This document shows, piece after piece, positions 12,523 through 40,303 of a stretch of 64,000 nucleotides of DNA. The notes beneath the pieces were generated by a model, which saw nothing but the letters and a program-made list of their open reading frames with translations, did no database searches and was not told the DNA's origin. A program made the translations under genes and the position numbers. Numbering within the stretch: the stretch's first letter is position 1; each line of letters starts with the position of its first letter. Source of the stretch: Tunturiibacter empetritectus (GTDB taxonomy: Bacteria; Acidobacteriota; Terriglobia; Terriglobales; Acidobacteriaceae); assembly GCF_013410875.1 (NCBI RefSeq), contig NZ_JACCCU010000001.1, positions 1,178,001 through 1,242,000 on the forward strand. Reading direction: 5' to 3'.

Positions 12523-12548
12523 ATCCCCGGCTGGTGCCGGGGATTTTT
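12523..12548 (+). terminator. Rho-independent terminator after the Fe-S carrier gene
   Basis: A nine-base GC-rich stem ATCCCCGGC/GCCGGGGAT with a four-base loop is followed by TTTTT, 39 bases after the stop codon. It is directly followed by one copy of the ~140-bp dispersed repeat. Confidence 0.88.
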
Positions 12549-12550
12549 CT

Positions 12551-12692
12551 GCGTTTAATGGGCGTTTTTTGAGGGTGTTTCAGGAAAAAGCGGTGTTTCG
12601 ACGTGGTGTTTTGATGGTGTAGATGTGGTGGCTTGCGTGGTGAAGATGGTGTTTTAGCAGTCACATTTTGAGGTCCGAAAAATACGCCACGG
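12551..12692 (+). repeat. ~140-bp dispersed repeat, copy 1 (post-terminator element)
   Basis: This segment aligns along its whole length with the reverse complement of 40120-40260. Shared landmarks in order are TTTTTTGAGGGTGTTT, GAAAAAG, CGTGGTGTTTTG, GTGGTGGCTTGCGTGGTGAA, TTAGCAGTCAC and CCGAAAAATACGCCA. GTGGTG is iterated four to five times at irregular spacing. It begins within a few bases of the terminator hairpin of the upstream gene, the same arrangement as the other copy. It is probably non-coding because open frames are not preserved between copies. Confidence 0.75.
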
Positions 12693-13062
12693 CTTTCAGG
12701 TTTATTTTCAGGGTCTTCTGGGGTGAGGAGCTCGAGTCAGATCTCGGGGTATCGGTCGGGAAGCGGCCAAGAAAGCCAGAAAGAGCAGTCGGCGGAACCC
12801 TCCGATTGGGGTAATGAGATAGCACGGAAGGTGTAGTAATCTCGAAGATCTTTGCGGCTATCTTGGCTAGAGATTCATCTTTCGCTCCTCATTGGACGTT
12901 GAGCCATATACCAAGGGGATGGGCCCAAGCTAAAAATTGCAGTTCCGTCCAGGAGCCCCCGTGCTTAAACCAGCTGCGTATGTTGATTCGCTCACCTCTT
13001 CGTCACTCTTCCCTTCGCCCCGCGGCATTTCAGGTGGCGGAGGACGATCAAGCCGTTCGGCT
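12693..13062 (+). other. Leader region of the Ig-repeat lipoprotein gene
   Basis: About 370 bases without a recognisable gene. The reading frame of the downstream lipoprotein is open from 12937 but codes there for a low-complexity stretch with no domain, so this is more likely untranslated leader and promoter. No clear regulatory motif was identified. Confidence 0.4.
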
Positions 13063-15700: not shown

Positions 15701-17380
15701 TCAGTGGGCTTCTTCGGACTTGCCGCTGGGTTTGAAGGCTTTGGTGAGCAGGACTATCGGGGCTGCGATGAGGGTGATGATGCCGATGATGTGGAAGCAG
15801 TCCATGAAGGCGAGGAGCTGGGTTTGGGCGTGGAGCTGGTCGTAGACACGTCCGTAGGCTGCGCTGATGGCGTCTGCTGGGGAGAAGCCGTGAGATTGCA
15901 GGTAGGAGGCCGTCTGGTTGATGTTCTGCTGCAGGGTGCCGTTGGAGGAGGCGAGGTTTGAACCTACGCGCTCCTGGTGAAAGCTCTGGCGCCGGTCGGA
16001 CATGGTGGTGATGAAGGCGATGCCGAAGCTGCCACCCCAGTTACGGAAGAAGTTGGTGAGGGAGGAGGCCTTGTTGTTTTGTGCCGGGCTTAGCTGCGAG
16101 TAGGCGATGACCGAGAGCGGCACGAAGAAGAAGCCGTAGCCGAGGCCTTGCAGGGCGCGGGCGAGGGCGTAGTGTTTGTAGTCGGTGTCGAGGTTGAAGT
16201 GGCTGTAGTGGAGGAACGACATGCCGACGATCATGACGGCTCCGAAGAGCAGGATGCGGGGCTTGACGATGCCTCGCTGAACCAGTTGCGCGCCTACGGG
16301 GGCCAGGAAGGTGATGACTAAGGCTCCGGGTCCGAGGACTAGGCCGGCGTCGATGGCGCGGTAGCCGTAGAGGGACTGGAGGAGCTGCGGGATCATGGTG
16401 GTGGAGGCGAAGAGGCCGAAGCCGAAGATGAAGTAGAAGAAGTTGGCGATGGCGAAGTTGCGGATCTTGAGGAGGCGGAAGTCGATGATGGGGTCGGGAA
16501 CGTGGAGCTCCCAGAAGACGGCAGCGGTGAGACAGCCGATACCGATGACGAAGCACCAGATGATGAAGGGGGAGCCGAACCAGTCGTCGATCTGGCCGCG
16601 GTCGAGGAGGACTTCGAGGGCTGCGGAGCCGAGGCCGACGAGGGCGATGCCGATGCCGTCGACGCGGAGTTTTCCGGGCTTGCCATTGAGGGCAGGGCCG
16701 CGGACGGTCTTGCGCTCTTCGGCGTAGCCCTCGGGATCGTGAACGAAGCGGTTGGTGAGGAAGAGGGAGAGGATGCCGACGGGGATGTTGATGAAGAAGA
16801 CCCAGCGCCAGTTGTAGTTGTCGGTGATCCAGCCGCCGAGGACGGGGCCGATGGCGGGGGCGGTGACAATGGCGACGGTGTAGAGGGCGAAGGCGGAGGC
16901 GCGTTTGGCGGGAGGGAAGGCGTCTACGAGGATGGCTTGCTCGACCGGGGCGAGGCCGCCGCCGCCGATGCCTTGCAGGACACGCGAGAGGAGCATGATG
17001 CCGAGGGTGGGGGCGATTCCGCAGAAGAAGGACGTGATGGTGAAGAGGGTTACGCAAGCCATGTAGTAGGTCTTGCGGCCGAAGACGCGGGAGAGCCACG
17101 CGGACATGGGGAGGACGACGGCGTTGGCGACGAGATAGGTGGTGAGGATCCAGGTGACTTCGTCGTAGGAGCGGCCGAGGCCGCCGGCGATGTAGGGGAG
17201 GGAGACGTTGGCGATGGAGGTGTCGAGCAGCTCCATGAAGGTGGCGAGGGTGACGGTGAGGGCGACGACCCAAGGGTTGATGAGGGGACGGGCTGGGCGC
17301 TGGGCGGCGGACTTGGCAGGCTGCGGGGGAGCGGCGGGCTGAACGGGCTTCGGTGGCTCGATGAGGGTGGCGGTGGCCAT
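15701..17380 (-). CDS. DHA2-family (EmrB/QacA) MFS drug efflux transporter
   Basis: Protein of 559 residues with about 14 membrane segments, the length of the DHA2 family. Motif LLDTSIANVSLPYIAGGLG (about 50-68) is the family's TM1 signature (LDxTIVNVALP type). SWLSRVFGRKTYY carries the loop 2-3 motif A, and RVLQGIGGGGLAPVEQAIL is motif B. GPVLGGWITDNYNWRWVFFIN is motif C followed by the NWRWIFFIN-type signature. It should export hydrophobic compounds by proton antiport in the inner membrane. The gene diverges from a TetR regulator with 160 bp between the starts, a classical repressor-pump arrangement. A membrane-fusion partner is not in the window. Substrates are unknown. Confidence 0.92.
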   Translation of the reverse strand: MATATLIEPPKPVQPAAPPQPAKSAAQRPARPLINPWVVALTVTLATFMELLDTSIANVSLPYIAGGLGRSYDEVTWILTTYLVANAVVLPMSAWLSRVFGRKTYYMACVTLFTITSFFCGIAPTLGIMLLSRVLQGIGGGGLAPVEQAILVDAFPPAKRASAFALYTVAIVTAPAIGPVLGGWITDNYNWRWVFFINIPVGILSLFLTNRFVHDPEGYAEERKTVRGPALNGKPGKLRVDGIGIALVGLGSAALEVLLDRGQIDDWFGSPFIIWCFVIGIGCLTAAVFWELHVPDPIIDFRLLKIRNFAIANFFYFIFGFGLFASTTMIPQLLQSLYGYRAIDAGLVLGPGALVITFLAPVGAQLVQRGIVKPRILLFGAVMIVGMSFLHYSHFNLDTDYKHYALARALQGLGYGFFFVPLSVIAYSQLSPAQNNKASSLTNFFRNWGGSFGIAFITTMSDRRQSFHQERVGSNLASSNGTLQQNINQTASYLQSHGFSPADAISAAYGRVYDQLHAQTQLLAFMDCFHIIGIITLIAAPIVLLTKAFKPSGKSEEAH

Positions 17381-17426
17381 GGACTTCTGGATCTCCTCTC
17401 GGTTTAGGGCGGCGTTCTGGGGTGCG

Positions 17427-17442
17427 GTCTCAAAAAAGAGAC
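17427..17442. promoter_or_regulatory. Candidate TetR operator in the pump/regulator divergent region
   Basis: GTCTC-AAAAAA-GAGAC is a perfect five-base inverted repeat with a six-base spacer, lying between the divergent starts of the DHA2 pump and the TetR gene. Position and size suit a TetR dimer site; the sequence itself is not diagnostic. Confidence 0.4.
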
Positions 17443-17540
17443 TGAACGGTTTCTTTAAGCATCTGATTCATTTGAGGCGCCGCTTGATTCGTTTTGTTGC
17501 TGTAGGATTTCGGGGCGGCCGCGAGGGTGAGGATAGAGAT

Positions 17541-18128
17541 ATGGGAAAAGGGGAGTTAACGCGGCAGAGGATTATCGAGGAGGCGGCGCCGATCTTTAAT
17601 CAGCGGGGGTTTGCCGGATGCTCGATGCAGGATGTGCTGGATGCTACGGGGCTGGAGAAGGGTGGGGTGTACCGTCACTTCGAGAGCAAGGAGGAGCTGG
17701 CGGCGGAGGCGTTTCGGTATGCGTGGGGGCGGGTGGCGAAGGCGCGGCGGGAAGGGCAAGACGCGATTCCGGGTTCGGTGGAGAAGCTGAGGTACTCGGT
17801 GAGGCGGTTTGCGGAGACTCCGGGGATTTTTCCGGGGGGGTGTCCGCTGATGAATACGGCGATCGATGCGGATGATGGGAATCCGCTGCTGCGGAGTTTG
17901 GTTTGTGCGGCGATGAAGGAGTGGAAGGCTCGGCTGGCGAGCATTGTGGAGGCTGGGATTGCGGCGGGGGAGATTCGGGGTGAGGTTCAGCCTCGGCGGG
18001 TTGCGAACGTGATCATTGCGACGTTGGAAGGCGCATTGATGATCAGCCGTCTGGAGGGGAACCGGGTGGCGGTACAAGACGCGAGGGACGGGCTTGAGAT
18101 CATGCTGGGTCAGATTGTGGCGGCTTGA
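17541..18128 (+). CDS. TetR/AcrR family regulator of the adjacent efflux pump
   Basis: Protein of 195 residues. The ATG at 17541 is chosen because the TetR domain begins at once (GELTRQRIIEEAAPIFNQRG) and GTGAGG lies about ten bases upstream; the open frame extends 60 codons further without meaning. The helix-turn-helix SMQDVLDATGLEKGGVYRHF followed by ESKEELAAEAF is canonical. The effector half includes GGCPLMNTAIDADDGNP, similar to the YcdC/TetR_C subset that often controls efflux genes. Divergence from a DHA2 pump implies local repression relieved by a pump substrate; that link is contextual inference. Confidence 0.88.
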   Translation: MGKGELTRQRIIEEAAPIFNQRGFAGCSMQDVLDATGLEKGGVYRHFESKEELAAEAFRYAWGRVAKARREGQDAIPGSVEKLRYSVRRFAETPGIFPGGCPLMNTAIDADDGNPLLRSLVCAAMKEWKARLASIVEAGIAAGEIRGEVQPRRVANVIIATLEGALMISRLEGNRVAVQDARDGLEIMLGQIVAA

Positions 18129-18147
18129 TAGGGCGATGCGAGACACG

Positions 18148-18179
18148 AAAAATCCCCGATTGAATCTCGGGGATTTTTT
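18148..18179. terminator. Rho-independent terminator after the TetR gene
   Basis: AAATCCCCGA pairs with TCGGGGATTT around a short loop and ends in TTTTTT, 20 bases past the TetR stop codon. The A-run on the left side could also let it serve the convergent FG-GAP gene. Confidence 0.85.
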
Positions 18180-18231
18180 GTTGGTGGAGGTTTGGTGGCG
18201 ACTTTATTCTTCGCTGTCGATCAGCTGCCGG

Positions 18232-21200
18232 TTATTGGACCGTCACCTGGAAGTTGATGGCGTGTGAAAGGTTGCCGGAGGAGTCTGTCGTGGTCAGGGT
18301 GACGGTCTGGACACCTACTGGGGTGCCCGGATTGGTGGGAGGGTTAGAGGGTGAGGAAGAACTGCAGCCTGAGAACGACAGCAGACCAGCGGCCAACAAG
18401 AGTGTGAGCAGGCTTGCGCGTGCGAGACGGCGATTGAGTCTGAAGATCCGGCGCGGGGTGAGGGTCAGGAAGAGAAGACTGGCCCAGGCGATCCCTTGCA
18501 GCGGACCGGATAGGTTACGCAGGAAGGCAGTCGGTGGTGCGGTTGTCGTGATGGTTAGAGTGGAGGTTGCCGAGCCGGTGGACGGCGTTATGGAGGATGG
18601 AGCGAAGTTGCAGGTCACTCCGGTGGGCAGGGTACCACAGGAGAACTTGACCGTGCCCGTGTAGCCACCCACAGGGGTAACGGTGAGGGTGGTGGTGGCG
18701 GATTGTCCGGCCTTGATGGTTGCGGAGGACGGGGAGGCGGTGACGGTATAGTCCGGAGCGGGGATGGTGACGGTGACCGGTGCGGAGACGCTGCTCAGGT
18801 TGGCAATGTCGCCTGCGTAGCTTGCTGTGACGGTGTAAATGCCAGCGGCTGTGAAGGTGAAGGGCAGGACTGCTACTCCGTTGGTCACAGGAGCTGTGCC
18901 AAGGATCGCGGTTGCGGAGGCAAAGGTTACCGTTCCGGTCGGATTGAGTCCTGAGACGGATGCGGTGAGGGTGAGCTGTTGGTTCGTTCCGGCGCTCGCC
19001 GCAGAGACGGAGAGAGTGGTCGTCGAGCTTACCGGAGCGACGACGATCGAAACTGCGTTTGAGGAGCTTGATGTGTTGTTGGTGTCTCCGGCGTAGTTGG
19101 CGATGACGGGGTAAGTGCTTGCCGTCGCGAAGGACGTGGCGAGTGTGGCACTTCCGTTGATAATGGACGCTGTTCCGAGTGCTTTGCCATTGCTGGCGAA
19201 GGAGACTGTGCCAGTTGGTGTGGCTCCTGTGACCGTGGCGGTAAACGTGAGTTGCTGACCGGGTGCTGCGCTGTTAGCTGAGGCCGCGAGTGTGGTTTTG
19301 GAGGGAAGTAGTGCTGGAGGAGTCGACGCAGGGTTGAGTTGGTTCAGGAGCGAGTACACGGCTTGGCCAAGCGAGTATGCTTGGCCACTGAAACTGAGGT
19401 AATCCAATTTGTTGTCGCCTGGCAGGTTTGGCGCCTGATTATTCAACCGGGCGAGTTGACCGAGAGGACCGACATTGACAGGATAGGTGTTCGGGTCAGC
19501 AGTGAAGTTGCCTTTACCATCTCCGAAATAAATGGTGACAGATGAATTTAGGCCACCTGTCGCAGGGTTGAGCAGATCGAGGTGTCCGTCTCCGTTGAGG
19601 TCGCCGACCGCTGTGCCAAAGCCAGCTTTTGTAAAGAAGGGCGTCGTCTGAAAGGTTCCGTCACCGTTTCCGGCATAGATCCCGCCTCCGGCAAGCAGGT
19701 CGGGGATCCCATCCCCGTTCAGATCGCTTGTAACAACCCCTCCAGTGGGCCAGGGCTGTTCCTGGAAGGTGCCATCACCATTTCCCAAACTGAGGGTATT
19801 GCCGCCAATGATATCGAGCTTCCCGTCGTTATTCACGTCTACGACTTGTCCAAGAGTGGATTGATCGTACCCGACCGGGGGTGCCGAAACCGCTATGGGA
19901 GCGGCGAAGGTTCCGTCTCCCTTGCCTGCAAAAAAGAAAGTTCCTGTGGGAAAAGCGGGGTTCTCGTGGGCGTCGAGTCCGCCGTAAGGTACAAGAAGGT
20001 CGAGCTTGCCGTCGCCGTTGAAATCGCCGACTGCAGGTGTGCCTGCCCCATAGAAGCTCAGAGCTGCTGGGGCGGGACTCGCCTTGAAGGTGCCGTCGCC
20101 GTTACCGCTGTAAAAAAACATCTGTGCGTTTGCGGTAATGACTTCCCCATGGGAGTCAAGTGATCCGGGCAGGATGATGATCGCGTCCGGCTTGCCGTCG
20201 CCATCGAAATCTCCTGTGACGATGACTGGCGGGTTCTTTATATATTGCGGCGGTTGGGTGCTCCCGGTATTTTGCGTGGTGACCGCGAACCTCCCGTTTC
20301 CGCGCCCCAAGGCGGCTATCAAATTTCCGCCAAAGTCAACACCGAGCACATCGGTGAGGCCATCTCCGTTAAGATCCGCAGTGATAGGAGTTCCGATTTG
20401 TTGTGTCGATGTCGATGCGTACGGCAGAACGGTCGCTGGGGATGCTTGAAAGGTGCCGTTTCCGTTGCCGACAGCGGTTACCGATTCTACATTTGACTGA
20501 AAGTAGAGGTTGATATTGCCGTTGGCTCCCGACAAGGCTACGGCATAGGTGGACAAGCTATAGCTCTCTCCCATGGAGAGGCCACCATTCCCGTCATTGA
20601 TAGCGATGGAGGTAACACCGCCGACCAGGGCGAAGTTCGTGACGCTGCTCGTAGTTGTGTTCTGGAAGGGAACGATCTGCGCATAATTCATGGACGGGTT
20701 GAGAGCAAGGGTCGCGCCAGTCGTAAAGTTTTTACTTGGATCCCCAAGTAAAATCTGAAGTGATATGGCAGGAGCTGACGGGTCCTGGCTCTGTGGGTCC
20801 GAGCTGAGATATGCAACATCTGCCAGTCCGTCTCGGTTGAAATCTCCAGTGACGAAACTCTGGCCTATTGAATTTGTAGCGACGCTCGCGGTTATAAGCT
20901 GTGGAGAGTTTAATGTCCCATCTCCCTTGCCGTAGTAGACCGCTAGTTGCGCATTGCCTGCGATGATGTCCTGTTTGCCGTCACCGTTGAAGTCACCGGC
21001 GCCGATGAACCTGAAGGTGACATTTGTTGGGGCGGAATATAAGACGGACGAAGAGAGCGATCCTGGTTTTCCGCTGCCTTGGTTCAGCAGTACACCAACT
21101 TCGTCGCTGTTCGCGATAACGGCAATATCAAGATAGCCGTCTCCATTCAGGTCGATGGCAATTACCTGGGTCAAGATGGGAGCAGCCGCGCCTGGAATTG

Positions 21201-21627
21201 TGACAGCGTAGTAGGACGCCGGTTGAAAGGTGCCGTCGCCGTTCCCGAGCAGCACGCCGATGTATCCACCTCCACACGAGAATGCGAGATCAAGCTTAGT
21301 GTCGTTGTTCAGATCTGACGCCAGAACATACTGCGGGGTGCATGACAGTGGGATGCTTGTAAGAGTTGGTGACGACGTCGGGCCGTTGTTCAGACTTATA
21401 CCCATGGCGTTGATGCCGTTGGACGTAGCTTCGTCGATTCGACCATCGCCGTTGAAGTCGCCCAGGGCCATATTGGGCTGCGGGGAAAGGGCAAAGTTAT
21501 ACGGAAGAACTGGGAAGATGGGAGTTTGAGTCTGAGCGATGGCGGGGAGGGTGAGGAGAATGGCGATCAGAGAGACGAGGAGCGATCGGGCTCCGGAGGG
21601 GGTCTTGCACCAAGGGGTCGCAGTCAT
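18232..21627 (-). CDS. Secreted FG-GAP/VCBS repeat protein with Ig-like domains
   Basis: Protein of 1131 residues with an N-terminal signal peptide (LLVSLIAILLTLPAIAQ). About eleven calcium-loop repeats of the DFNGDGKLDLLV type occur between about residues 55 and 700 (for example ALGDFNGDGRID, AIDLNGDGYLDIAV, TGDFDGDGKPDAII, VGDLNGDGHLDLLN), which should form an integrin-like beta propeller. Two bacterial Ig-like (BIG3) domains follow near 775 and 869 (PTGTVSFASNGKALGTA, PTGTVTFASATAILGTA), then a domain with GGYTGTVKFSC. Near the C-terminus are hydrophobic segments, including LLLAAGLLSFSGCSSSS, an internal lipobox-like string, then a further beta segment. A role in surface binding or sensing is plausible but unproven. 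Confidence 0.85.
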   Translation of the reverse strand: MTATPWCKTPSGARSLLVSLIAILLTLPAIAQTQTPIFPVLPYNFALSPQPNMALGDFNGDGRIDEATSNGINAMGISLNNGPTSSPTLTSIPLSCTPQYVLASDLNNDTKLDLAFSCGGGYIGVLLGNGDGTFQPASYYAVTIPGAAAPILTQVIAIDLNGDGYLDIAVIANSDEVGVLLNQGSGKPGSLSSSVLYSAPTNVTFRFIGAGDFNGDGKQDIIAGNAQLAVYYGKGDGTLNSPQLITASVATNSIGQSFVTGDFNRDGLADVAYLSSDPQSQDPSAPAISLQILLGDPSKNFTTGATLALNPSMNYAQIVPFQNTTTSSVTNFALVGGVTSIAINDGNGGLSMGESYSLSTYAVALSGANGNINLYFQSNVESVTAVGNGNGTFQASPATVLPYASTSTQQIGTPITADLNGDGLTDVLGVDFGGNLIAALGRGNGRFAVTTQNTGSTQPPQYIKNPPVIVTGDFDGDGKPDAIIILPGSLDSHGEVITANAQMFFYSGNGDGTFKASPAPAALSFYGAGTPAVGDFNGDGKLDLLVPYGGLDAHENPAFPTGTFFFAGKGDGTFAAPIAVSAPPVGYDQSTLGQVVDVNNDGKLDIIGGNTLSLGNGDGTFQEQPWPTGGVVTSDLNGDGIPDLLAGGGIYAGNGDGTFQTTPFFTKAGFGTAVGDLNGDGHLDLLNPATGGLNSSVTIYFGDGKGNFTADPNTYPVNVGPLGQLARLNNQAPNLPGDNKLDYLSFSGQAYSLGQAVYSLLNQLNPASTPPALLPSKTTLAASANSAAPGQQLTFTATVTGATPTGTVSFASNGKALGTASIINGSATLATSFATASTYPVIANYAGDTNNTSSSSNAVSIVVAPVSSTTTLSVSAASAGTNQQLTLTASVSGLNPTGTVTFASATAILGTAPVTNGVAVLPFTFTAAGIYTVTASYAGDIANLSSVSAPVTVTIPAPDYTVTASPSSATIKAGQSATTTLTVTPVGGYTGTVKFSCGTLPTGVTCNFAPSSITPSTGSATSTLTITTTAPPTAFLRNLSGPLQGIAWASLLFLTLTPRRIFRLNRRLARASLLTLLLAAGLLSFSGCSSSSPSNPPTNPGTPVGVQTVTLTTTDSSGNLSHAINFQVTVQ

Positions 21628-21894
21628 TGTGGCATGTCCTTCAAAAGATGCTCGGCGGGAACGGGTTTGTGAAGCTCGTACTGTGCGCTTTATGCGGCGT
21701 CATGCCGCCAAAAAGATTTATTTATGGCGACGAAATGTCACCCAGATAATACAGGAGCGGGGTTTGCGGTCGTTGAGAAATCTTATGACCTGTTTGGGGG
21801 ATAGTAACGTGTGTCCTTCGGAGACGCGTTTTGGATGTGGGAACGTCTAAGATGGACGAAGTAGCTTTGAGCGGAGACGGGTGCCGTAGGTTCT

Positions 21895-23094
21895 ATGACT
21901 GAGTTTGTGATCAAGCTGGCGGATGAGCGTGGACGGGTGATGGAGCAGAGCCATGCGGCGGCTACCGCGGAGGAGCTGAAGGCGCGGTTTACCCATGCAG
22001 GATACTTCGTGTATTCCGTCAAGGCGAAGAGTGCGCTCGGGGCTAGCAAGAAGAAGGTGAAGCTGGAGACGTTCCTGGTCTTCAATCAACAGTTTCTGAC
22101 GTTGATTAAGGCTGGGTTGCCGATTTTGGGGTCGCTGGAGCTGCTGGGCAAGAGGCAGAAGATTCCGCACTTTCGCGCGCAGCTGGAGGACGTGGCGGCG
22201 CGGGTGAAGACGGGGGAGTCGATCTCGCAGGCGTTTGAGGCGCAGGGCGGATTTCCGATTGTGTATACGACGACGCTGCTGGCGGGGGAGCGGTCGGGAA
22301 ATCTGGAAGAGGTGTTGCAGAGGTTTCTGGACTTTCAGCGTGTGTCGCTGACGTTCCGCAAGAAGCTGAAGGCGAGTTTGATCTATCCGGCGCTGCTGGT
22401 AGTGATGGTGATTGGGTTGTTTATCTTTCTGATCACGTTTGTGGTGCCGCGGTTTGCGCAGCTCTATGACCAGCTGGGGACGAAGCTGCCGGCGCTGACT
22501 ACGTTTCTGCTGGACCTGGGGCGGGAGGCGCAGGCTTACGGGATTTATGTTGCGGTGGTGGTGGGGGCGGTTGGATTTTTGCTTTATCGGTGGTCGAAGA
22601 CGGATGCTGGGGCGAGCCTGATCGATAAGATTCGGATCAAGCTGCCGGTGTTTGGCAGTGTATGGCTGAAGTATCAGGTGGGGTTGTTTTCGCGGACTCT
22701 GTCTACGCTGTTGACGGGTGGTTTGCCGTTGGTGCCTTCGCTTGAGACGGCGGCGAAGTCGATTGATTCGCGGCAGATTGCGAGTGCGGTTTACAAGTCG
22801 GTGGAGACGGTTCGCGAGGGCAAGGGCTTGTCGGTGAGCTTGCAGGCGACGAAGGTATTTCCGGAGCTGGCGATCGAGATGATCGAGGTGGGCGAGTCGA
22901 CTGGTGCGCTGCCGCAGATGTTGAACTCGGTGGCGGAGTTCTTTGAGGAGGATGTGCAGACTAATCTGACGGCGGCGATGAGTCTGATTGAGCCGCTGAT
23001 CTTGATCATGATGGGGCTGGTGGTGACGACGATTTTGATTGCGCTTTATCTGCCGATCTTCAGTTTGAGTGCGGGTGGTTCGGGCGGCCAGTAG
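21895..23094 (+). CDS. gspF: Type II secretion/type IV pilus inner-membrane platform protein (GspF/PilC family)
   Basis: Protein of 399 residues, the normal length of GspF/PilC. Two repeats of the T2SSF domain are visible. The first is about residues 60-180 (FNQQFLTLIKAGLPILGSLELL, GESISQAFEAQGGFPIVYTTTLLAGERSGNLEEVL). The second is about 260-385 (GLFSRTLSTLLTGGLPLVPSLETAA, FPELAIEMIEVGESTGALPQML). Three membrane helices sit at about 165-185, 220-235 and 370-390 (LILIMMGLVVTTILIALYLPIFSL). It organises the assembly ATPase beneath the pseudopilus. The ATPase and PilMNOP-like genes lie 2.7 kb downstream on the same strand, separated by unrelated genes. Confidence 0.93.
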   Translation: MTEFVIKLADERGRVMEQSHAAATAEELKARFTHAGYFVYSVKAKSALGASKKKVKLETFLVFNQQFLTLIKAGLPILGSLELLGKRQKIPHFRAQLEDVAARVKTGESISQAFEAQGGFPIVYTTTLLAGERSGNLEEVLQRFLDFQRVSLTFRKKLKASLIYPALLVVMVIGLFIFLITFVVPRFAQLYDQLGTKLPALTTFLLDLGREAQAYGIYVAVVVGAVGFLLYRWSKTDAGASLIDKIRIKLPVFGSVWLKYQVGLFSRTLSTLLTGGLPLVPSLETAAKSIDSRQIASAVYKSVETVREGKGLSVSLQATKVFPELAIEMIEVGESTGALPQMLNSVAEFFEEDVQTNLTAAMSLIEPLILIMMGLVVTTILIALYLPIFSLSAGGSGGQ

Positions 23095-23104
23095 ATGATC
23101 TTGG

Positions 23105-23272: not shown

Positions 23273-23350
23273 CTGAAGGTACTTCGCTGCGTATTCTGGT
23301 TGCCCTCGCAAGTCTGCGCGGGGGTTTGTAGCTCAAGGATAGGAGGGCAT

Positions 23351-24787: not shown

Positions 24788-24795
24788 AAGATGAT

Positions 24796-24988: not shown

Positions 24989-24996
24989 GCTATCTT

Positions 24997-29424: not shown

Positions 29425-30119
29425 CAACGGTAGCGGAGAAGAAACGGTCCGCAGTTGCGGCCAAGCAGTGGGCCGAAAAGGCAAGCCGTCTGGGCACGCT
29501 GAAGAACTTCCACATCGCTGGAGCGGTGGCGCTGGGGCTGGTGAATCTATACCTGCTGGCGCACATGGCGTTTGCGTGGCGAGCAGCGAACAGCGAAGAT
29601 GCGGCTGCGCTTGCGGATCAGACAGTGCAGATGAAGACCGCCGAGATTGCAAAGCAGCCACTGGAAGGTTTGGACGAGAAGCTGGCGCAGGCTACCAAGG
29701 ATGCGGACAAGTTCTACAAACAGCGTCTGCCGTTTGCGAACTCCGAGGTGGCCGGCGAGCTGGGTGCGTTGGCGAAGAAGCAAGGGGTGAAGCTCACGCG
29801 GGTGCAGTATGCCTACTCTCCGGTGATGGATGGGACCGCCGGCGCGCTGACCGAGGCGCGCATGGATGCAAGTTTGAGCGGAGATTATCGGCCGCTGGTG
29901 GTGTTTATCAACTCGCTGGAGCGGGACAAGATGTTCTTCCTGATCACCGGGCTGACGCTGACTGGACAGCAGAGTGGGACGGTCGGGCTGCGGCTGCGGC
30001 TGACGACGTATCTGCGGTCGCCGGTAGGGACCGAAGGCTCGGAGAAGATTTTGGCGGGTGCGGAGGAGAAGGCGGCTGACAGCGCCTCGGAAGGTACTGC
30101 TGCGGGAGGCCGGCGATGA
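29421..30119 (+). CDS. PilO-like alignment-subcomplex protein
   Basis: Protein of 232 residues overlapping the preceding gene by four bases (ATGA). After a short cytoplasmic N-terminus rich in Lys/Ala, one membrane helix (about 32-54, HIAGAVALGLVNLYLLAHM) leads to a coiled coil (about 60-105) and a periplasmic ferredoxin-like domain (YRPLVVFINSLERDKMFFLITGLTLTG) typical of PilO/GspM. Together with the PilN-like protein it would bridge the inner-membrane platform to the periplasmic part of the machine. Confidence 0.78.
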   Translation: MTTVAEKKRSAVAAKQWAEKASRLGTLKNFHIAGAVALGLVNLYLLAHMAFAWRAANSEDAAALADQTVQMKTAEIAKQPLEGLDEKLAQATKDADKFYKQRLPFANSEVAGELGALAKKQGVKLTRVQYAYSPVMDGTAGALTEARMDASLSGDYRPLVVFINSLERDKMFFLITGLTLTGQQSGTVGLRLRLTTYLRSPVGTEGSEKILAGAEEKAADSASEGTAAGGRR

Positions 30120-30748
30120 TGGGGCTGACTGCGGATCAACAGAAGAAGGGCGGTATCATCGGCGCGTTCGTGCTGGTAGCGGCAGGAATTTTGTACTACG
30201 AGCTGCGTGACGACAGCCCTGCACCGATCGCGCCTCCTGTTGTCGTGACGGCTCCTGCTAGATCTGCTCCTGCTGCTGGAGCGGCTGTCGCACTGCCGTC
30301 GGGAAACATCGCGGGCGCGGCGGCGAAGAAGCTGGGGACCACCTCGGCACAGCTTGATCCGACGCTGCGAATGGATGCGATGCTGGTGACTGAGTCGCTG
30401 GTGTACTCGGGCAGCGGACGAAATATCTTCTCGGCGAACTCGGCGCCGGTGGAGATTCCGAAGCCGATAGCGTCGGTGCGAGCGGTAAAGGCTCCGCCGC
30501 CGGGTCCACCGCCACCTCCTCCAGGGCCGCCACCGCCACCTCCAATCGACTTGAAGTTCTTCGGCACAGCGACTGCCGCGAATGGAACCCGCCGGGCGTT
30601 TCTTCTGCATGGAGAGGATGTGTTCCTGGCCTCCGATGGCGACATCGTGCAGCGGCGGTATAAGGTTGTGACGATCTCAGCCAACTCGGTAGTCGTTGAG
30701 GACATGGCGAATAACAACACGCAGACATTACCGCTGCTGGCGCGGTAA
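30116..30748 (+). CDS. PilP/GspC-like periplasmic protein
   Basis: Protein of 210 residues overlapping the pilO-like gene by four bases. One N-terminal membrane helix (about 12-30, GGIIGAFVLVAAGILYYEL) is followed by a proline/alanine linker and a striking run of prolines and glycines (about 122-142). A C-terminal small beta domain (IDLKFFGTATAANGTRRAFL, DGDIVQRRYKVVTISANSVV) matches the homology region of GspC/PilP that contacts a secretin. Secretin itself is not encoded in the window. Confidence 0.75.
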   Translation: MMGLTADQQKKGGIIGAFVLVAAGILYYELRDDSPAPIAPPVVVTAPARSAPAAGAAVALPSGNIAGAAAKKLGTTSAQLDPTLRMDAMLVTESLVYSGSGRNIFSANSAPVEIPKPIASVRAVKAPPPGPPPPPPGPPPPPPIDLKFFGTATAANGTRRAFLLHGEDVFLASDGDIVQRRYKVVTISANSVVVEDMANNNTQTLPLLAR

Positions 30749-30774
30749 AGCAGCTGACGCCTGAGGTAGACGTG

Positions 30775-31974
30775 ATGAAGAGACTTTGCTCCCGGTTTTT
30801 TCTCGAGGATCGTATCCCGCGCGATCTTGCGCAGGCTGCTGTGTGCGCCGACGAGTGGCAAGGGGAGCAAGGCTTCATGCTCGTGGGGCTGATCGTCGCG
30901 ATCTTCATCATTCTGCTGGTGCTGAGTATTGCCGCCCCAAAGGCGGTGCAGGGGCTGCGCCGCGAGAAAGAAGTAGAGGCCGTGCATCGCGGAAACCAGT
31001 ACGTGCGCGCGATCCAGCTCTACTACCGCAAGAACAACACGTATCCCGGCACCATGGATGCGTTGGCCAAAGGCACTCCCGTGAAGTATCTGCGGCAGGA
31101 GTATGTAGACCCCTTCACGGGCAAGGCGGACTGGCGATTGATTCACGTCGGCGAGGCGAAGACGACAGTGAAGGGATTCTTTGGCCAGCCGCTGACGGGC
31201 CTTGCGCCTGGGTTGGGTTCAGCCGCGGGACAGGCCTCGGCAGGAGGTATCGGCGCAGGGGCCGCTGGTTCGAACTCCGCGTTTGGCTCTGCGAGTGGGA
31301 GCGCGTTCGGTTCGTCGGGGTCGAGTGGGTCGAGCGCATTTGGTGGTTCTTCCGGAGCTACGTTAGGAGGCTCAAGCTCCGCCGGAGCGAGTTTGGGGAG
31401 TACGGCGGGAGCTGGAGCTTCTGGCTCAGGCGCGGGAGGGGGCACGGCGACGGGAGCGACCACCGGGTCAACGGATAACTCAGGAACGGCCTCGACTGGG
31501 ACGGGTGCTCCCAGCACACTGGGGTCGGCAGCCGGGATTGCCAGCCAGTCGTCCGGTGGGTTTTCGGGAGGCGGCGCGCCGTTTGTCGGCGTGGGAATCC
31601 CGAAGGAGGGGACGTCGATCAAGGTGTTGAATGAGCAGACGTCGTACAACACGTGGGAGTTTATCTACGATCCTCGGATTGAGCAGATGAAGGCGGCTGC
31701 GGGGCTGCTGGGCGGAGGAACCCAGGGTCTGGGGTCTGCCGGTTCACTGAACTCCGGGGTTGGAGGCGCAGGGACGGGAACCTCAAGCTTCGGCTCATCT
31801 GGTTCCTCGAGTTTCGGATCTTCTTCAGGATCGTCGTTTGGGTCTTCTTCTGGCGGCTCTTCTTCAGGCTCAAGCTTTGGATCGTCGTCGGGTTCGAGCT
31901 TCGGATCGTCTCCGACTTCGGGTACGCAAGGGAGTGGAACAACGACGCCGACTACGCCACAACAGCCTCAGTAG
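30775..31974 (+). CDS. GspG-like pseudopilin with long Gly/Ser tail
   Basis: Protein of 399 residues (an in-frame GTG one codon earlier is possible). A 33-residue leader ends GEQG, followed by FMLVGLIVAIFIILLVLSIAAP, a prepilin-type helix. Position +5 after the cleavage site is Gly instead of the usual Glu. The pilin-like part (EAVHRGNQYVRAIQLYYRKN, YPGTMDAL, YVDPFTGKADW) resembles GspG. From about residue 145 onward the protein is dominated by Gly/Ser/Ala low-complexity sequence with FGSSSGS-type repeats, interrupted by one structured stretch (about 265-305, TSYNTWEFIYDPRIEQMKA). It is the last gene of the cluster. Confidence 0.8.
   Translation: MKRLCSRFFLEDRIPRDLAQAAVCADEWQGEQGFMLVGLIVAIFIILLVLSIAAPKAVQGLRREKEVEAVHRGNQYVRAIQLYYRKNNTYPGTMDALAKGTPVKYLRQEYVDPFTGKADWRLIHVGEAKTTVKGFFGQPLTGLAPGLGSAAGQASAGGIGAGAAGSNSAFGSASGSAFGSSGSSGSSAFGGSSGATLGGSSSAGASLGSTAGAGASGSGAGGGTATGATTGSTDNSGTASTGTGAPSTLGSAAGIASQSSGGFSGGGAPFVGVGIPKEGTSIKVLNEQTSYNTWEFIYDPRIEQMKAAAGLLGGGTQGLGSAGSLNSGVGGAGTGTSSFGSSGSSSFGSSSGSSFGSSSGGSSSGSSFGSSSGSSFGSSPTSGTQGSGTTTPTTPQQPQ
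31270..31965 (+). repeat. Low-complexity Gly/Ser-coding repeats in the pseudopilin gene
   Basis: Two blocks, about 31270-31470 and 31760-31965, consist of irregular 12-24 bp units coding FGSSSGS- or GSSGSS-like peptides. Short-unit repeats like these are prone to length change by slippage. Confidence 0.7.
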
Positions 31975-32019
31975 TTCTTTGCGGCTCGATGGCGGGCCGG
32001 GAATCGTTGTCATCGGCGA

Positions 32020-33126
32020 CTACGGTTTCTTTGTCACGATTGTCTTTTGATCGATAGCGCGCAGGCGGCCAATACGTCCATGCGGACCTACGACGAAGGG
32101 AAGCGAGAGCGCATTCCAGTTCTTGTCAGCATCCGCAGGATCAGTGGATGAGGGTGTAAGCGGACGCCAGTTCTTTCCGTCGTCGGTGGAGATATCAGTG
32201 CCGTTGGGGCCTACGGTGATCCATAGTTTTTGGGTGGCGTCGTAGGCTACGGCTGAACGGTAACCGTGGGGCAGAGTCTGGGCGGGATGCCAGTGTTGAC
32301 CAAGGTCTGGAGAGAACGCGGCGGTTCCTACGGAGAGATCAGGTAGTTTGTAGTCACCACCAACAGCGATCTGTGTCCAGTTGAATGCTGCGAGAGAGAA
32401 GATACCTGCAGAGTCGCTGTCATGAGCGATGGGTAGGCGCGCTTTCTGAAAATCGAAGAGATCGATGCAGGACTGAGGATGATCTTGTACGAGGCCCATC
32501 GTGCAGGTAGAGCCGCCGCCATAGAGCCATCCACGGGCTGTACCAAATAGGAGAGGCAGCTGAGCGACGAGCAAGGAGTTGCTGGCAGCAAAGGCTCCGC
32601 CTCCGCCCTCCGGTTCGGCGAGCCCGGGCTGTTTCACGGACTGCCAGTGAAGACCGCCATCGAAGGTCGCGAGCAGGATGAACTGATGGTTCACTGGATC
32701 GCCGAGTATCCATCCCCAGGAATTTGTCTGGAACTTAATCGCGTCCCAGAAACCATCTTTGTCCGGATTAGTGAAGACCAGCTTCCACGTTTGGCAGCCG
32801 TCGGTGGTTTTGTAGAGGCGGGATTGGTCGCCGGGGCCGCTGGACATGACGATGGCGGTGTTTTCGTCGAAGGCCTGGACGCCGCGGAAGTCGAGCTTGT
32901 CTGCGCCGGGCGGGATCGTGCAGGTCTGCCAGAGATAGCCGCCGTCTTCGGTGCGGAGCACTGTGCCGTTGCTGCCGCTGGCCCATGCGACTCCTCCGCC
33001 GACGTTGTGAATGCCACGCAGGCTGGCCGTGGTGTGGGACTCTTCGATATCCCACTGTGCGTAGGCCAAGCTTGCAGCTTGTGTAGTCGTCAGAGTGAGG
33101 GCCAGAAAAAGGTGAGAGGATCGCAT
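32020..33126 (-). CDS. Secreted YCF48/BNR-like beta-propeller protein
   Basis: Protein of 368 residues with a signal peptide (about 1-23, ending AYA). It has repeated propeller units of the type GSNGTVLRTEDGGYLWQ, SRLYKTTDGCQTWKLVF, ILLATFDGGLHWQSV and TDISTDDGKNWRPL, the BNR (Asp-box-like) signature found in YCF48-like and sialidase-related propellers. No catalytic sialidase residues could be identified, so an enzymatic role is not claimed. It is likely periplasmic or outer surface. A palindromic element separates it from the penicillin acylase gene upstream on the same strand. Confidence 0.78.
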   Translation of the reverse strand: MRSSHLFLALTLTTTQAASLAYAQWDIEESHTTASLRGIHNVGGGVAWASGSNGTVLRTEDGGYLWQTCTIPPGADKLDFRGVQAFDENTAIVMSSGPGDQSRLYKTTDGCQTWKLVFTNPDKDGFWDAIKFQTNSWGWILGDPVNHQFILLATFDGGLHWQSVKQPGLAEPEGGGGAFAASNSLLVAQLPLLFGTARGWLYGGGSTCTMGLVQDHPQSCIDLFDFQKARLPIAHDSDSAGIFSLAAFNWTQIAVGGDYKLPDLSVGTAAFSPDLGQHWHPAQTLPHGYRSAVAYDATQKLWITVGPNGTDISTDDGKNWRPLTPSSTDPADADKNWNALSLPFVVGPHGRIGRLRAIDQKTIVTKKP

Positions 33127-33222
33127 CTGCTGATTAGTGTATGACGGGTTCGTCTGCGGTTAGAAGGTGCCGAAGAGCTAACTCGGAGACGATCGACAGA
33201 CGTGTGGCAACAACGTTCCAAG

Positions 33223-33320
33223 GTCCTGCCGGACGGGCGCCCTGCGCGGGCGGCGGTCACTTCGTGACTTGTGTACCTTTTCTTGGTTGGGGGGACGATG
33301 CTGGTCCTCCCGTTGGTCGG
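33223..33320. repeat. REP/BIME-like element, copy C (single arm)
   Basis: GTCCTGCCGGACGGGCG, then GCGGTCACTTCGTGAC, a GTGTACC box and, after a spacer, CCTCCCGTTGGTCGG: the same order as one half of copy B. It lies 3' of the penicillin acylase gene. Confidence 0.8.
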
Positions 33321-33337
33321 GGGAAATAGGCGCGGCA

Positions 33338-35977
33338 TTACCTTGGCGTGAGGGTCAGGGTGTGGGTGGTGGCGGCATCGACTGCGGCGTGGCTGAAGGG
33401 CATGGAGAAGGTTGTGCCGTGGTACCAGGCAGGCCATTGATCCATGAACCAGGCACTCATTGGATTTGAGGACTCGCCGAGGACGAGGTTGAAGGTGCTG
33501 TGGTCGAGATCGGAGAGGTCGGCGGTGAAGCGCTCGGAGGGGCCGAAGCTGCGGCCTACCTGCTTGACGGTGACGTCGTCGCCGCTCTGGGGCTGGAGGC
33601 CGGGGCTGGTGGGCAGGCCAAGGACGCGCTGAAGGATCGGAGACTGGCTGTAGATGGGATGCTCGATGTCGATGGGACGGAACTGACCATAGCGCCACTT
33701 CGCGAGGTCGACGGGAGCGTGGTTGTCGGCGAGGGCCTTTGAGACGGCGGCAGTGAGCAGGTCATCCCAGGTGGAATACGCCGGGGGAAGCCAGCGGCCG
33801 GGCGTGTGCATGATGAGCCACTCTTCTGCGTAGGCCTTGTTGCCCCAGGTATAGAGAGCTGCTCCGGTGCGAGGGCCGTTAGGCTGAAGGTCCGATTTGG
33901 TTTGAGGCTGCGCGCTGAGTTGCGGGTCGAGCAGGAGCGACCACAGCGCGGCTCGAGTGGCGACCACGATGGCGGGGGCGGCAGCATCTGCGTCGACGTT
34001 GCCGTTCCAGTCGCGGAGGAGATCCGCCGCCTGATGAAGATGCTTCGAGGCAGTCTTTTCGGTCGTGAACTCGGACTTGGTGACGTGATCGATGGCGTAG
34101 GCAAGACGCTGCGCGATGACGTGATCGACGTCAGAGTACACGTCGGTCTGGAGCGCTAGCATGTCGGCCGCCGTGAGGTGGTCTTTCGTCTCGGCGGCGC
34201 GTGCCGTAAGAACCTTCCAGATGCGTTCGTTGCGATAAGGAGCGGTCCAGTTTAGGGTGATCGGATAGGGGTAGTCGTCGCCGGTGACACGTGCATTGGC
34301 GGTGGCGAGGATGCCGTTGGACGGGTCCACCGCACGGGGAAGCATCTCGTAGGGAATCGTGCCAGCCCACTCCTGCGTAGCGTCGAGTGCGTCGCTGGGA
34401 ACCGGGCTGATGGGGCTTGGTGTCGCAATATTGCCGCGAATCGGAATCTTTCCGACGGCATGGTAGCCGATGTGACCCTGATCGTCCGCATAGACGAGAT
34501 TCTGCGCAGGGCCGCCAAAGCTGGAGAAAGCAGCGACCAGGCCGACGCCGTCAGTCGCCGTATCGATGGCCAAAAACGATGGTGTGATGTTTGCAGGGTC
34601 GTAGATCGTCCAACGGAGGGAGAGGCTGCGCTTCTCGCTGGGAAAGATGCCCGAGATGATCGGCGTATTCACGCCGCCGTGTTGAGTCGCAGGCACATCA
34701 AGAACAACATCCTTCGCCCCTTTGACGTGGAGAACCTCCTGCTGATGAATCACCGCATGCCAGCTGTTGTCTGCCGCTTGATACTCCATCGCGTCGCCGC
34801 TGCCACGCGTGTGTTCGACATACACGTCCTGCACCTCGGCGCCGAGATTCGTGAACCCCCACGCAACATGGGCGTTGTGGCCGACGATGATAAACGGGAC
34901 CCCCGGCAGCGAGACGCCGGAGACGTGAAGATCTCCATTCGGCACAGGCGCTTCGAGATCCGCCTGATACCAGATCCCCGGAATATTGTGCGTCAGATGC
35001 ATGTCATTTGAGAGCAGTGGCTTGCCGGTAGCCGTATGCGCGCCCGCGACAACCCAGTCGTTCGACCCTGCAAAACAGCCCTCGCAGACTGGGTTCTTGA
35101 GCGTCTCCTGCAGCGCAAGCAGATCCTCCGCACTCACCGTAGAAAGCTCCGGCCTGCGAAGCTTCGTCTGCGATTCATCAAGCGGAATGTCCGGAATATC
35201 CTGCTGCGGCGCTGTGAGATCAACCATAGGCAGAGCCGGCGGGTGGTCGCGCCACGAGCCCACAGGATAGAGATCCCCAACCAGATGCGACGGAAGCCGC
35301 GCAGTCAGCGCCTCGCGATTCAGCTGCTGCGGAAAGCTGTTGGTCAGATCCTGAAACATCACCAGCCCAATCAGAAGGCTGTCCCGCGGTGTCCACGGTG
35401 CGGGCTCATAACGCAGCAGGCGAAACTCCAGCGGCAGATGTGCGCTCTGGTCGGCGATGGACGCATTCACGCCAGCGGAGTACCGCTCCAGCAGATGAAG
35501 CTGATCAGCTGGAAGAGTAGCAAGCGCACGGTCGGCGGAGGCGCGAATCCGCAGAGTACGCTGCGCCCGATCATGCGGAATCAGCGGCGCTCCAAGTATC
35601 TCCGCAAGACTGCCGGACGCATGCCGGCGCAGCGCATCCATCTGCCACAGCCGATCCTGCGCCGTCACGTACCCCTGCGCCATCACCAGATCGTCCAGCG
35701 AACTCGCCCGAAGGTGCGGAACTCCATGGTCATCGCGCTCGACCGAGACCGGCGCGGACAACCCCGCGACAGAGATCGCTCCATCCACCTGCGGCAGAGC
35801 ATCCCGCATTGCCTTGCGCGTCCAGTGCCGCGCATAGAAGAAACCAACCAGGCCGAAGATCAATACAAGCAAAGTAAAAATGACCACAAGTCGATAAAAG
35901 ATCCGTCTGCGTCGAACCTGCAGGGCGGTGCGGGCTTCTTCCGGGGAGGCTGCGGCGATCGATTCGTACGGATTCAT
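33338..35977 (-). CDS. Membrane-anchored penicillin acylase family (Ntn-hydrolase) protein
   Basis: Protein of 879 residues from the ATG at 35977 (MNPYESIAAASPEEART); the frame is open 23 codons further but without a ribosome-binding site for either start. A single membrane anchor lies at about 28-50 in place of a cleavable signal. The A-chain region has VSVERDDHGVPHLRASSLDDLVMAQGY and AQDRLWQMDALRR. Autoprocessing should occur before Ser in CFAGSNDWVVAG, the family's catalytic N-terminal serine of the B chain (Asp replaces the more common second Asn). The family cleaves acyl amides, including acyl-homoserine lactones in some members; the substrate here is unknown. Confidence 0.88.
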   Translation of the reverse strand: MNPYESIAAASPEEARTALQVRRRRIFYRLVVIFTLLVLIFGLVGFFYARHWTRKAMRDALPQVDGAISVAGLSAPVSVERDDHGVPHLRASSLDDLVMAQGYVTAQDRLWQMDALRRHASGSLAEILGAPLIPHDRAQRTLRIRASADRALATLPADQLHLLERYSAGVNASIADQSAHLPLEFRLLRYEPAPWTPRDSLLIGLVMFQDLTNSFPQQLNREALTARLPSHLVGDLYPVGSWRDHPPALPMVDLTAPQQDIPDIPLDESQTKLRRPELSTVSAEDLLALQETLKNPVCEGCFAGSNDWVVAGAHTATGKPLLSNDMHLTHNIPGIWYQADLEAPVPNGDLHVSGVSLPGVPFIIVGHNAHVAWGFTNLGAEVQDVYVEHTRGSGDAMEYQAADNSWHAVIHQQEVLHVKGAKDVVLDVPATQHGGVNTPIISGIFPSEKRSLSLRWTIYDPANITPSFLAIDTATDGVGLVAAFSSFGGPAQNLVYADDQGHIGYHAVGKIPIRGNIATPSPISPVPSDALDATQEWAGTIPYEMLPRAVDPSNGILATANARVTGDDYPYPITLNWTAPYRNERIWKVLTARAAETKDHLTAADMLALQTDVYSDVDHVIAQRLAYAIDHVTKSEFTTEKTASKHLHQAADLLRDWNGNVDADAAAPAIVVATRAALWSLLLDPQLSAQPQTKSDLQPNGPRTGAALYTWGNKAYAEEWLIMHTPGRWLPPAYSTWDDLLTAAVSKALADNHAPVDLAKWRYGQFRPIDIEHPIYSQSPILQRVLGLPTSPGLQPQSGDDVTVKQVGRSFGPSERFTADLSDLDHSTFNLVLGESSNPMSAWFMDQWPAWYHGTTFSMPFSHAAVDAATTHTLTLTPR

Positions 35978-39112: not shown

Positions 39113-40114
39113 TTGGACTGCAAGATCTTTTATCACGATAAGTGCTTCGATGGAGCCTGTTCGGCTTCGCTGTTCACGCGGTTCCACCGGGAGTGCGTGA
39201 AGACGGCGACCACGTACTCCTATCACGGACTCGTGCACCGGACCGGCGCGCTGTTCGACGAAGGCGACTTCGGCAGCGGCGAAAATGCAATCGTGGACTT
39301 CAAATACTCGGCCTCACCCAAAGTGACGTGGTGGTTCGATCATCACCAGAGCGCGTTTTTGACGCCAGAAGACCAGAAGAACTTTGAAACAGGACAGGCC
39401 GATGGATCGCAGCGTATGCGAAAGTTCTTCAACGCGAACTACATCTCCTGCACCAGCCTGATCGCAGACATCGCGCAGCTAAACTTCGGCTTCAACACAG
39501 CCCCCGTGCTGGAGCTGATCCAGTGGGCCGACATCGTCGACGGTGCACGGTACGAGAGCGCCAAGGCTGCGGTAGAGATGGCCGCCCCGGCGATGAAGCT
39601 GACGATGGTGATCGAAAGTTCCTCGGACCCGACCTTGGTGCCGAAACTGATTCCTATCTTGACCGAGATGAGTCTGCAACAGGTACTGGACCAAGGGATC
39701 GTGCAGGCGCTGTTGGGTCCGTTAATGGACCGCCACTGGGCAGCGCTCGAGCTGATCAAACAGCGAGCCACCGTCGACCATGGTGTGATCACCTTCGACA
39801 TCACCGACCAGCCGACCGAGGGTTATAACAAGTTCATACCGTACTATCTGCATCCCGACGCAACCTACAACGTGGGACTTAGCAAGTCGAGCTTTCGTAC
39901 CAAGGTGTCGGTTGGCACTAACCCGTGGACCAAGCGGATGACCTCCGAACTGGTCAATCTCGCTGCCATCTGCGAGCGCTATGGCGGCGGCGGACACGCT
40001 CGTGTAGGCGCAATCAGCTTCCCCCCTGATCGGGAAGACGAAGCGCGAAAGGCCGTCGGCGAGATCGTGGCTGAGCTGCAAGCAGCTTCCACCGGGCATG
40101 AAAAAAATAGTTGA
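39113..40114 (+). CDS. DHH family phosphoesterase
   Basis: Protein of 333 residues starting at TTG 39113, with GGGAGAGAG about ten bases upstream and no better start. The N-terminus KIFYHDKCFDGACSASLF holds the DxDG-like metal site, and WWFDHHQSAF (about 72-81) is the name-giving DHH motif. The C-terminal GGGGHARVGAISF (about 289-301) is the DHHA1 substrate motif. The family hydrolyses phosphodiester bonds in short RNAs, cyclic dinucleotides or pAp using Mn2+. The substrate cannot be resolved from the sequence. Its stop is five bases from a copy of the ~140-bp dispersed repeat. Confidence 0.85.
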   Translation: MDCKIFYHDKCFDGACSASLFTRFHRECVKTATTYSYHGLVHRTGALFDEGDFGSGENAIVDFKYSASPKVTWWFDHHQSAFLTPEDQKNFETGQADGSQRMRKFFNANYISCTSLIADIAQLNFGFNTAPVLELIQWADIVDGARYESAKAAVEMAAPAMKLTMVIESSSDPTLVPKLIPILTEMSLQQVLDQGIVQALLGPLMDRHWAALELIKQRATVDHGVITFDITDQPTEGYNKFIPYYLHPDATYNVGLSKSSFRTKVSVGTNPWTKRMTSELVNLAAICERYGGGGHARVGAISFPPDREDEARKAVGEIVAELQAASTGHEKNS

Positions 40115-40119
40115 GAAAG

Positions 40120-40260
40120 TTGGCGTATTTTTCGGTCGCGAAAAAGTGACGGCTAACGCACCACGTTCACCACGCATTCCACCACGTTCTCACCAGCAAA
40201 ATACCACGCCAAAACCGCTCTTTTTCTAAAACACCCCTCAAAAACATCAGCAAAACACAC
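40120..40260 (-). repeat. ~140-bp dispersed repeat, copy 2 (inverted relative to copy 1)
   Basis: Reverse complement of this segment aligns end to end with 12551-12692: TTTTTGAGGGGTGTTTT, GAAAAAGAGCGG, GGCGTGGTATTTTG, GTGGTGGAATGCGTGGTGAA, TTAGCCGTCAC and ACCGAAAAATACGCCA occur in the same order. Read on the minus strand it directly follows the hairpin behind rseP, reproducing the gene-terminator-repeat order seen at copy 1. Confidence 0.75.
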
Positions 40261-40303
40261 AAAACCCCGGAGCGAACCATGCTCGCTCCGGGGTTTATTT
40301 TTT
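40261..40303. terminator. Bidirectional rho-independent terminator behind rseP
   Basis: AAACCCCGGAGCGA pairs with TCGCTCCGGGGTTT around a short loop. An A-run on the left and a T-rich right side let it work for the minus-strand rseP gene (stop at 40312) and for transcripts arriving from the left. Confidence 0.85.

Follow-up and report, generated by a model that had tools for sequence, protein, structure and literature searches.

A selection-kept, GT-rich DNA site in about 70 copies per genome of some Acidobacteriaceae, mostly at gene 3′ ends and linked to upward jumps in GC skew

Most dispersed intergenic repeats of bacteria are either palindromes that fold or remnants of mobile DNA, and those of the REP/BIME type in enterobacteria stand behind genes and between convergent genes. 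Chi sites are frequent GT-rich octamers, orientation-dependent and with a reach of about 10 kb, and replication origins of the iteron type have direct repeats beside an AT-rich stretch. Gyrase cleavage is reported in BIME-2, gyrase gathers on BIME-2 and downstream of transcribed units, and the E. coli gyrase motif is 130 bp long, phased and degenerate, with periodic arms on either side of a core (PMC6379681); the RhoTermPredict rule describes a stretch of about 78 nt with C in excess of G and a C every 11–13 nt (PMC6407284).

The element that we describe here is a clade-specific, non-coding DNA site, present in about 70 copies per genome, kept by selection and standing mostly at gene 3′ ends. 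It resembles REP/BIME in being a dispersed intergenic repeat, but REPs are short folding palindromes whereas the element is made of direct repeats over about 150 bp and has no consensus fold; a palindromic hairpin unit of the REP/BIME kind does not show in it (0 pairs in a 30-copy consensus). With iteron-type origins it shares direct repeats beside an AT-rich stretch and a skew that rises outward, the difference being that it has about 70 chromosomal copies. Like Chi it is GT-rich and orientation-dependent, with an effect over about 10 kb, but it is about 150 bp long and has about 70 copies, whereas Chi is a frequent octamer. A Chi reading was rejected because the E. coli octamer GCTGGTGG is not over-represented in 1.26 Mb (231 occurrences against 241 expected), a count that concerns the E. 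coli consensus and perhaps not the Chi of this group, which may differ. No such repeat of Acidobacteria is named in the titles and abstract openings of the papers listed, and papers on GC skew may mention one further into their text.

The window, by which we mean the whole stretch of 64,000 nucleotides analysed here, holds two copies in the following surroundings.

12082 to 12483, plus strand: gene of an ErpA/IscA-type Fe-S protein, in front of copy 1 (translation; NCBIfam TIGR00049, 1.9e-33; Pfam PF01521)
12522 to 12545, plus strand: terminator-type hairpin, AATCCCCGG..CCGGGGATT and then TTT, between the erpA-type gene and copy 1
12561 to 12712, GT strand plus: copy 1 of the GT-rich element (model R1, 109.2 bits, E 3e-31, whole genome)
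39113 to 40114, plus strand: convergent gene with its 3′ end inside copy 2 (from the sequence)
40100 to 40247, GT strand minus: copy 2 of the GT-rich element (model R1 and the sequence)
40263 to 40295, minus strand: terminator-type hairpin, AACCCCGGAGCGAGC..GCTCCGGGGTT, 3′ of rseP
40312 to 41706, minus strand: rseP, in front of copy 2 (TIGR00054, PF02163)

A preliminary description of this DNA had reported a repeat that occurs twice, each time directly behind a terminator hairpin, and much of it stands: the two segments are homologous (blastn from copy 1 to copy 2, E 1.4e-22, 79% identity), both CCCCGG-type hairpins are where it placed them, and the genes in front, which it named as an Fe-S carrier gene and rseP, are of the ErpA/IscA type and RseP, respectively, by the families listed above. 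Its positions are sound, with the boundaries given here being the better ones, and the segment end that it set at CCGAAAAATACGCCA has to be moved, as the family extends about 20 bases further, up to TTTATTTT. The right end of copy 2 overlaps the 3′ end of the plus-strand gene at 39113–40114, which matches no Pfam family at E 1e-5 and which we take, from its motifs, to be a DHH-type phosphoesterase (nrnA-like). What holds for both window copies does not hold for the family, however: a hairpin of −8 kcal/mol or lower followed by T is found at 33 of 87 gene ends before a copy and at 33 of 160 gene ends without one, and this 1.8-fold enrichment, which is all that is left of the suggestion that the element targets terminators, has a Fisher p of 0.004 that is too small because the 87 gene ends include orthologous sites of related genomes. 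A copy is present at the erpA-type site in 8 of 30 fetched loci and at the rseP site in 6 of 30; a near hairpin was seen by eye behind the erpA-type gene in 18 of 22 copy-free loci of the genus.

The window copies are far from alone. In the window's own genome (5.07 Mb, five contigs), blastn with copy 1 gives 40 matches, and model R1, a sequence-only covariance model built from 30 copies, finds 77 places at E ≤ 0.1; eight of these, weaker than 1e-3, were excluded (one is C1 371589, 8.8 kb from a copy and left out of the close pairs described below), and 69 copies, one only 69 bases long, were kept after fetching and a second search, so that the search for more copies proposed in the preliminary description did find them. 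The count is again 69, at E ≤ 1e-4, in a second genome of the species. Among 84,980 species genomes, an exact 32-base pattern of the element occurs in 76 stretches, all of them in Acidobacteriaceae, the carriers being Edaphobacter lichenicola X5P2, M8US30 and M8UP30, Granulicella sp. S190 and L60, KBS 89 and an Edaphobacter MAG. Model searches with stricter filters, which may have missed weak copies, matched 14 of 61 genomes at the genus level (own included), all of the same genus, and 9 of 299 at the family level, one of them from another genus; besides the own genome, the genus search returned six genomes with at least 49 matches, one with 46, one with 22 and five with 1 to 6 weak ones. The family has thus been seen only in carriers of the Edaphobacter/Granulicella group.

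What, then, is the element made of? Over its length of about 150 non-coding bases, the GT strand (33% G, 37% T, 12% C, 18% A) presents in order an A or T tract, TTTTTG..GGGG.TTTTGG.AAAA, five GTGGTG-like units with GG at columns 42, 53, 64, 76 and 85, an AT-rich piece (TTTTT..G...CGAAAAATACGCCA) and a right end (TTTT..TTTATTTT). The units stand between A/T tracts, and the G period of 10.8 bp is about one helical turn; within the repeat block the period is 10.8–11.0 bp for G and for G+C, and over the full element the G+C period peaks at 13.9. Length is well kept, 43 of 69 copies having no indel in well-filled columns and 52 of 69 the same net length, with an indel of 10–12 bases, about one unit, in six of the 69. 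The small RNA that had been put forward as one candidate finds no support, and a structured RNA was rejected: an RNAalifold consensus of 30 copies, folded as the GT strand, has 0 pairs, and no Rfam family came near its gathering score. A left-end hairpin is strong in a minority of copies only, its mean lying near that of shuffled sequence; when 142 copies were divided by a rule of our own, the 94 of type B averaged −7.7 against −6.1 kcal/mol for shuffled sequence and the 48 of type A did no better than shuffled. The absence of an RNA fold, the scarcity of indels and selection on single columns bear out the earlier view that this is a DNA-level element and not a gene, and from the selection, the phasing and the missing RNA fold we regard the element as very probably a DNA-binding platform.

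The present copies are old, site-stable and under purifying selection. At least 58 of 77 copies in named genomes, picked by the exact 32-base pattern, stand at a site that is likewise occupied in the window's genome (G000), a lower bound because the ‘unmatched’ copies that were examined included a shared site. Of the 58, 43 were recognised by both flanks, 12 by the left only and 3 by the right only; two of the left-only sites have no right flank to test, and among the sites with both flanks testable, 10 share the left flank alone and 3 the right. Three of the 19 copies with no matching G000 site were examined: L142 lies at a site common to G000, with a 1.5-kb insert; at L130, the G000 copy stands between two pieces of the L130 right flank; and L114 has a homologous left flank in G000 with no listed copy near, its right flanks differing between carriers. 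In the comparison with L142, the 1.5 kb is extra in the window's genome, directly before the shared copy (contig 3, about 633.6–635.2 kb). Across 57 orthologous pairs, columns that vary between copies have a substitution rate of 0.285 and conserved ones a rate of 0.051 (Spearman rho −0.80; columns of the 32-base pattern excluded), and in 42 such pairs the element shows 86.4% identity and 2.1 gap events per 100 bases (pattern columns included), against 82.1% and 7.1 in the neighbouring non-coding DNA. Substitutions thus avoid the columns that are conserved between copies, which argues for purifying selection and not for a decaying mobile repeat, because decay would erode all columns equally. 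Different copies have a median similarity of 77% (closest pair 93%) against 86% for orthologues, so there is no homogenisation among copies.

An unexpected property of the copies lies in the DNA around them, which we followed in 1.26 Mb of sequence in three stretches (27 copies) and in 10-kb loci. GC skew of 0.2–0.4 fills domains of tens to hundreds of kb (window 45000–63000 and 16000–34000, and stretches of the contigs), being mostly +0.2 to +0.4 in the window between 45 and 63 kb and mostly −0.2 to −0.4 across 230 kb of contig 2. The skew is independent of gene strand, since neighbouring genes on opposite strands correlate at 0.79, and genes show no preference for the locally G-rich strand (382 of 817). 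In the profile, several rises look sharp and several falls gradual, and low-GC islands are near zero. Within the 1.26 Mb, a copy stands within 3 kb of 9 of 20 up-jumps and of none of 21 down-jumps, where about 13% would be expected (p 5e-4 and 0.05, respectively); with low-GC islands removed, a copy stands within 3 kb of 5 of 11 up-jumps and of none of 16 down-jumps, and within 5 kb of 8 of 11 up-jumps and 1 of 16 down-jumps. Measured over 8 kb, skew rises by +0.117 in 26 copy-bearing gaps against −0.021 in 326 control gaps (p 1e-7), all controls being over 6 kb away from the nearest copy, which by itself pulls their mean slightly below zero, and the random-position null being centred on 0. 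At third codon positions the rise is +0.264 against −0.050, and T–A skew increases across copies as well. Own copies with sufficient room (n=65) give +0.081, and copies of other genomes that could not be matched to a G000 site give D +0.128 (s.e. 0.029, n=14, a set that includes at least one shared site). The rise lies on the 3′ side of the GT strand, which is G-rich in 83%, and fades by about 12–16 kb (n=27); its mean is positive in all four gene arrangements, that of <E< not significantly so (+0.045, p 0.056). The three pairs of copies less than 10 kb apart (matches with E < 1e-5) all face outward, and each has an up-jump either between its two copies or no more than 2.3 kb away.

C2 83529/87663: outward-pointing copy pair
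C2 343772/345086: outward-pointing copy pair
C1 2383912/2389571: outward-pointing copy pair

This leading-strand-like rise across the site holds on average and not at every copy. Over a 2-kb span, 27 copies give +0.025, which does not reach significance (p 0.10), over 2.5 kb the rise is small and significant for 67 copies, and copy-free gene ends of the same 10-kb loci have a mean of +0.039 at 2 kb (n=189). The copies at C1 1356k, 1404k, 2047k and 2183k lie inside uniform skew domains with no jump, and those of the window have their nearest jump at 4.4 and 7.4 kb, the skew behind copy 1 (window 13–14 kb) falling first. Relatives with no or few weak matches also show strong skew domains (G023, with one weak match at E 0.0088, is an example), so skew does not require the element. 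Beside the gene at 39113–40114, the one contrast of this kind that was followed, the skew of carriers departs from that of non-carriers to the left as well as to the right of the site, which amounts to one phylogenetic event.

How might all this fit together? Starting from what is established, namely the family, its selection and phasing, its placement at gene ends and its polar link to upward GC-skew jumps, we favour the prediction, to which we give a probability of roughly 35%, that the element is a directional site on the chromosome, bound by protein and serving as a point of departure for DNA synthesis. A DNA-binding protein, or several subunits of one, would occupy the row of GTGGTG units, which would lie roughly on one face of the helix beside the AT-rich right end, and from this polar site synthesis would leave toward the 3′ side of the GT strand, be it by replication restart, recombination-dependent replication or secondary initiation. 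In the following 10–15 kb or so, the GT strand would turn G- and T-rich over evolutionary time, as a leading strand does; it is from the outward rise of G and T, seen also at third codon positions, and from its polarity that we infer leading-strand synthesis moving away from the site. Of the three candidates in the preliminary description, the nucleoid or replication-related binding site comes nearest, on account of helical phasing and skew jumps, with binding itself a prediction from sequence.

The placement of the copies invites another explanation. Genes were called with our own dicodon caller (coding fraction 0.78 in the loci), which is not a curated annotation, and the sample comprises 146 copies including orthologous sites of relatives, 137 of them with both neighbours; L127, which overlaps a called gene, was left out, and eight more have no neighbour in the stretch. 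Among the 137, 53 lie between convergent genes, 37 and 27 between codirectional and 20 between divergent ones, and background gaps of at least 150 bases are convergent in 59 of 425 and divergent in 139 of 425 (Fisher p 3e-9 for the convergent excess and 3e-5 for the divergent deficit, values that overstate independence because orthologous sites are counted). In the own genome alone 24 of 69 copies are convergent. The left gene reads toward the copy in 94 of 141 cases, and 92 of these 94 genes end within 130 bases. Could the element be a transcription boundary, whose GT strand slows or stops readthrough and whose C-rich strand is a Rho loading (rut) site for the convergent gene, so that operons are insulated? 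We consider this possible, if on the unlikely side. The orientation of the left genes and the convergent excess speak for it, as does the hairpin enrichment before copies, and the complementary strand, C-rich and G-poor because the GT strand is 33% G and 12% C, has C groups about every 11 nt, so that composition and spacing come near the RhoTermPredict rule. But just 81 of 141 copies have a right gene that reads into the C-rich strand; RNA loading needs no fixed spacing, whereas the element, unlike a rut site, is conserved letter by letter with near-constant spacing and mostly the same net length; and the skew jumps, positive on average in every gene arrangement, go unexplained.

Convergent placement would also suit a site at which gyrase wraps DNA, set where positive supercoils accumulate downstream of transcribed genes and between convergent ones. 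The element's length of about 150 bp and its period, 10.8–11.0 bp for G/C in the repeat block, resemble the helically phased strong gyrase sites of E. coli and phage Mu (SGS), with about 130–150 bp and phasing near 10.7 bp, and gyrase binding of the element is on these grounds a prediction. We nevertheless think it rather unlikely, as the element is a strict, one-way row of repeats whereas the E. coli motif is described as degenerate and two-armed, and as neither the skew jumps nor the polarity would be expected.

A rearrangement hotspot, in which the copies are breakpoints of inversions or insertions and the skew changes by history, is improbable in our view. It would account for the right flanks, which vary among carriers at the erpA-type site (by eye) and at L114, and for the excess of left-only flanks. 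Inversions, however, predict up- and down-jumps alike, and the bias toward up-jumps described above persists without the low-GC islands.

An old MITE-like element that spread once in an ancestor and now merely persists is very improbable, for although many dispersed copies restricted to one group and the excess of left-only flanks are in its favour, and although a mobile ancestor plausibly explains the spread to about 70 copies (the part of the earlier mobile-element candidate that survives), the copies are old, site-stable and selected column by column, their similarity speaks against a recent burst, their ends show by eye weak, imperfect similarity and no convincing terminal repeats, and no clean empty site with a target duplication was seen at the two sites compared. 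A phage or plasmid origin was rejected, as phage and plasmid records hold no match at E 0.01.

A bolder proposal, which we hold to be quite unlikely, is that these Acidobacteriaceae start a meaningful share of their chromosomal DNA synthesis at many dispersed, protein-bound, polar sites and not at one origin only, and that the family marks these sites and would have left N-shaped GC-skew domains. To our knowledge, N-shaped skew domains are known from vertebrate replication domains and not from bacterial chromosomes. A long, unfolded, polar site of about 70 copies, selected letter by letter and found preferentially at origin-like jumps, would indicate a previously unknown chromosome-organising DNA-binding system in a group of soil bacteria, and if the skew link is causal, the start or restart of bacterial synthesis at many fixed sites becomes directly testable.

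Some other patterns of placement were considered and set aside. Even spacing was rejected (gap CV 0.82 against 0.98 ± 0.11 at random), and so was a fork trap or replichore-oriented motif, orientation in G212 being random, with 39 runs against 35 expected and a two-arc bias p of 0.90. Insertion next to tRNA genes was rejected as well: 60 of the 68 own loci that had been fetched were scanned, and they contain one tRNA and one tmRNA; the tmRNA ends 75 bases before its copy.

As for the neighbouring genes themselves, 40 on the left and 32 on the right were chosen, and functions were looked up for 20 and 10 of them, respectively. Ten of the 20 in front are core genes (gyrA, rseP, erpA-type, hemL, holB-like, ilvB, lon, groEL, ribBA and typA), the other ten including regulators, transport, sugar enzymes and three with no family, and dnaA and NAD kinase are core genes among the ten on the right. 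The genes polA, mreB and metG and that of the ATP synthase epsilon subunit also adjoin copies but were picked by eye, and the five additional genes looked up after such recognition make no fair sample. The best-scoring copy of the genome (L229, 5000–5148) stands 23 bases behind gyrA, its left end forming a long perfect hairpin, and another (L240, 5077–5228; contig 3, about 322 kb) stands 217 bases behind the 3′ end of dnaA. The window itself also holds a fluoride riboswitch aptamer, at 61299–61364 on the minus strand (43.8 bits).
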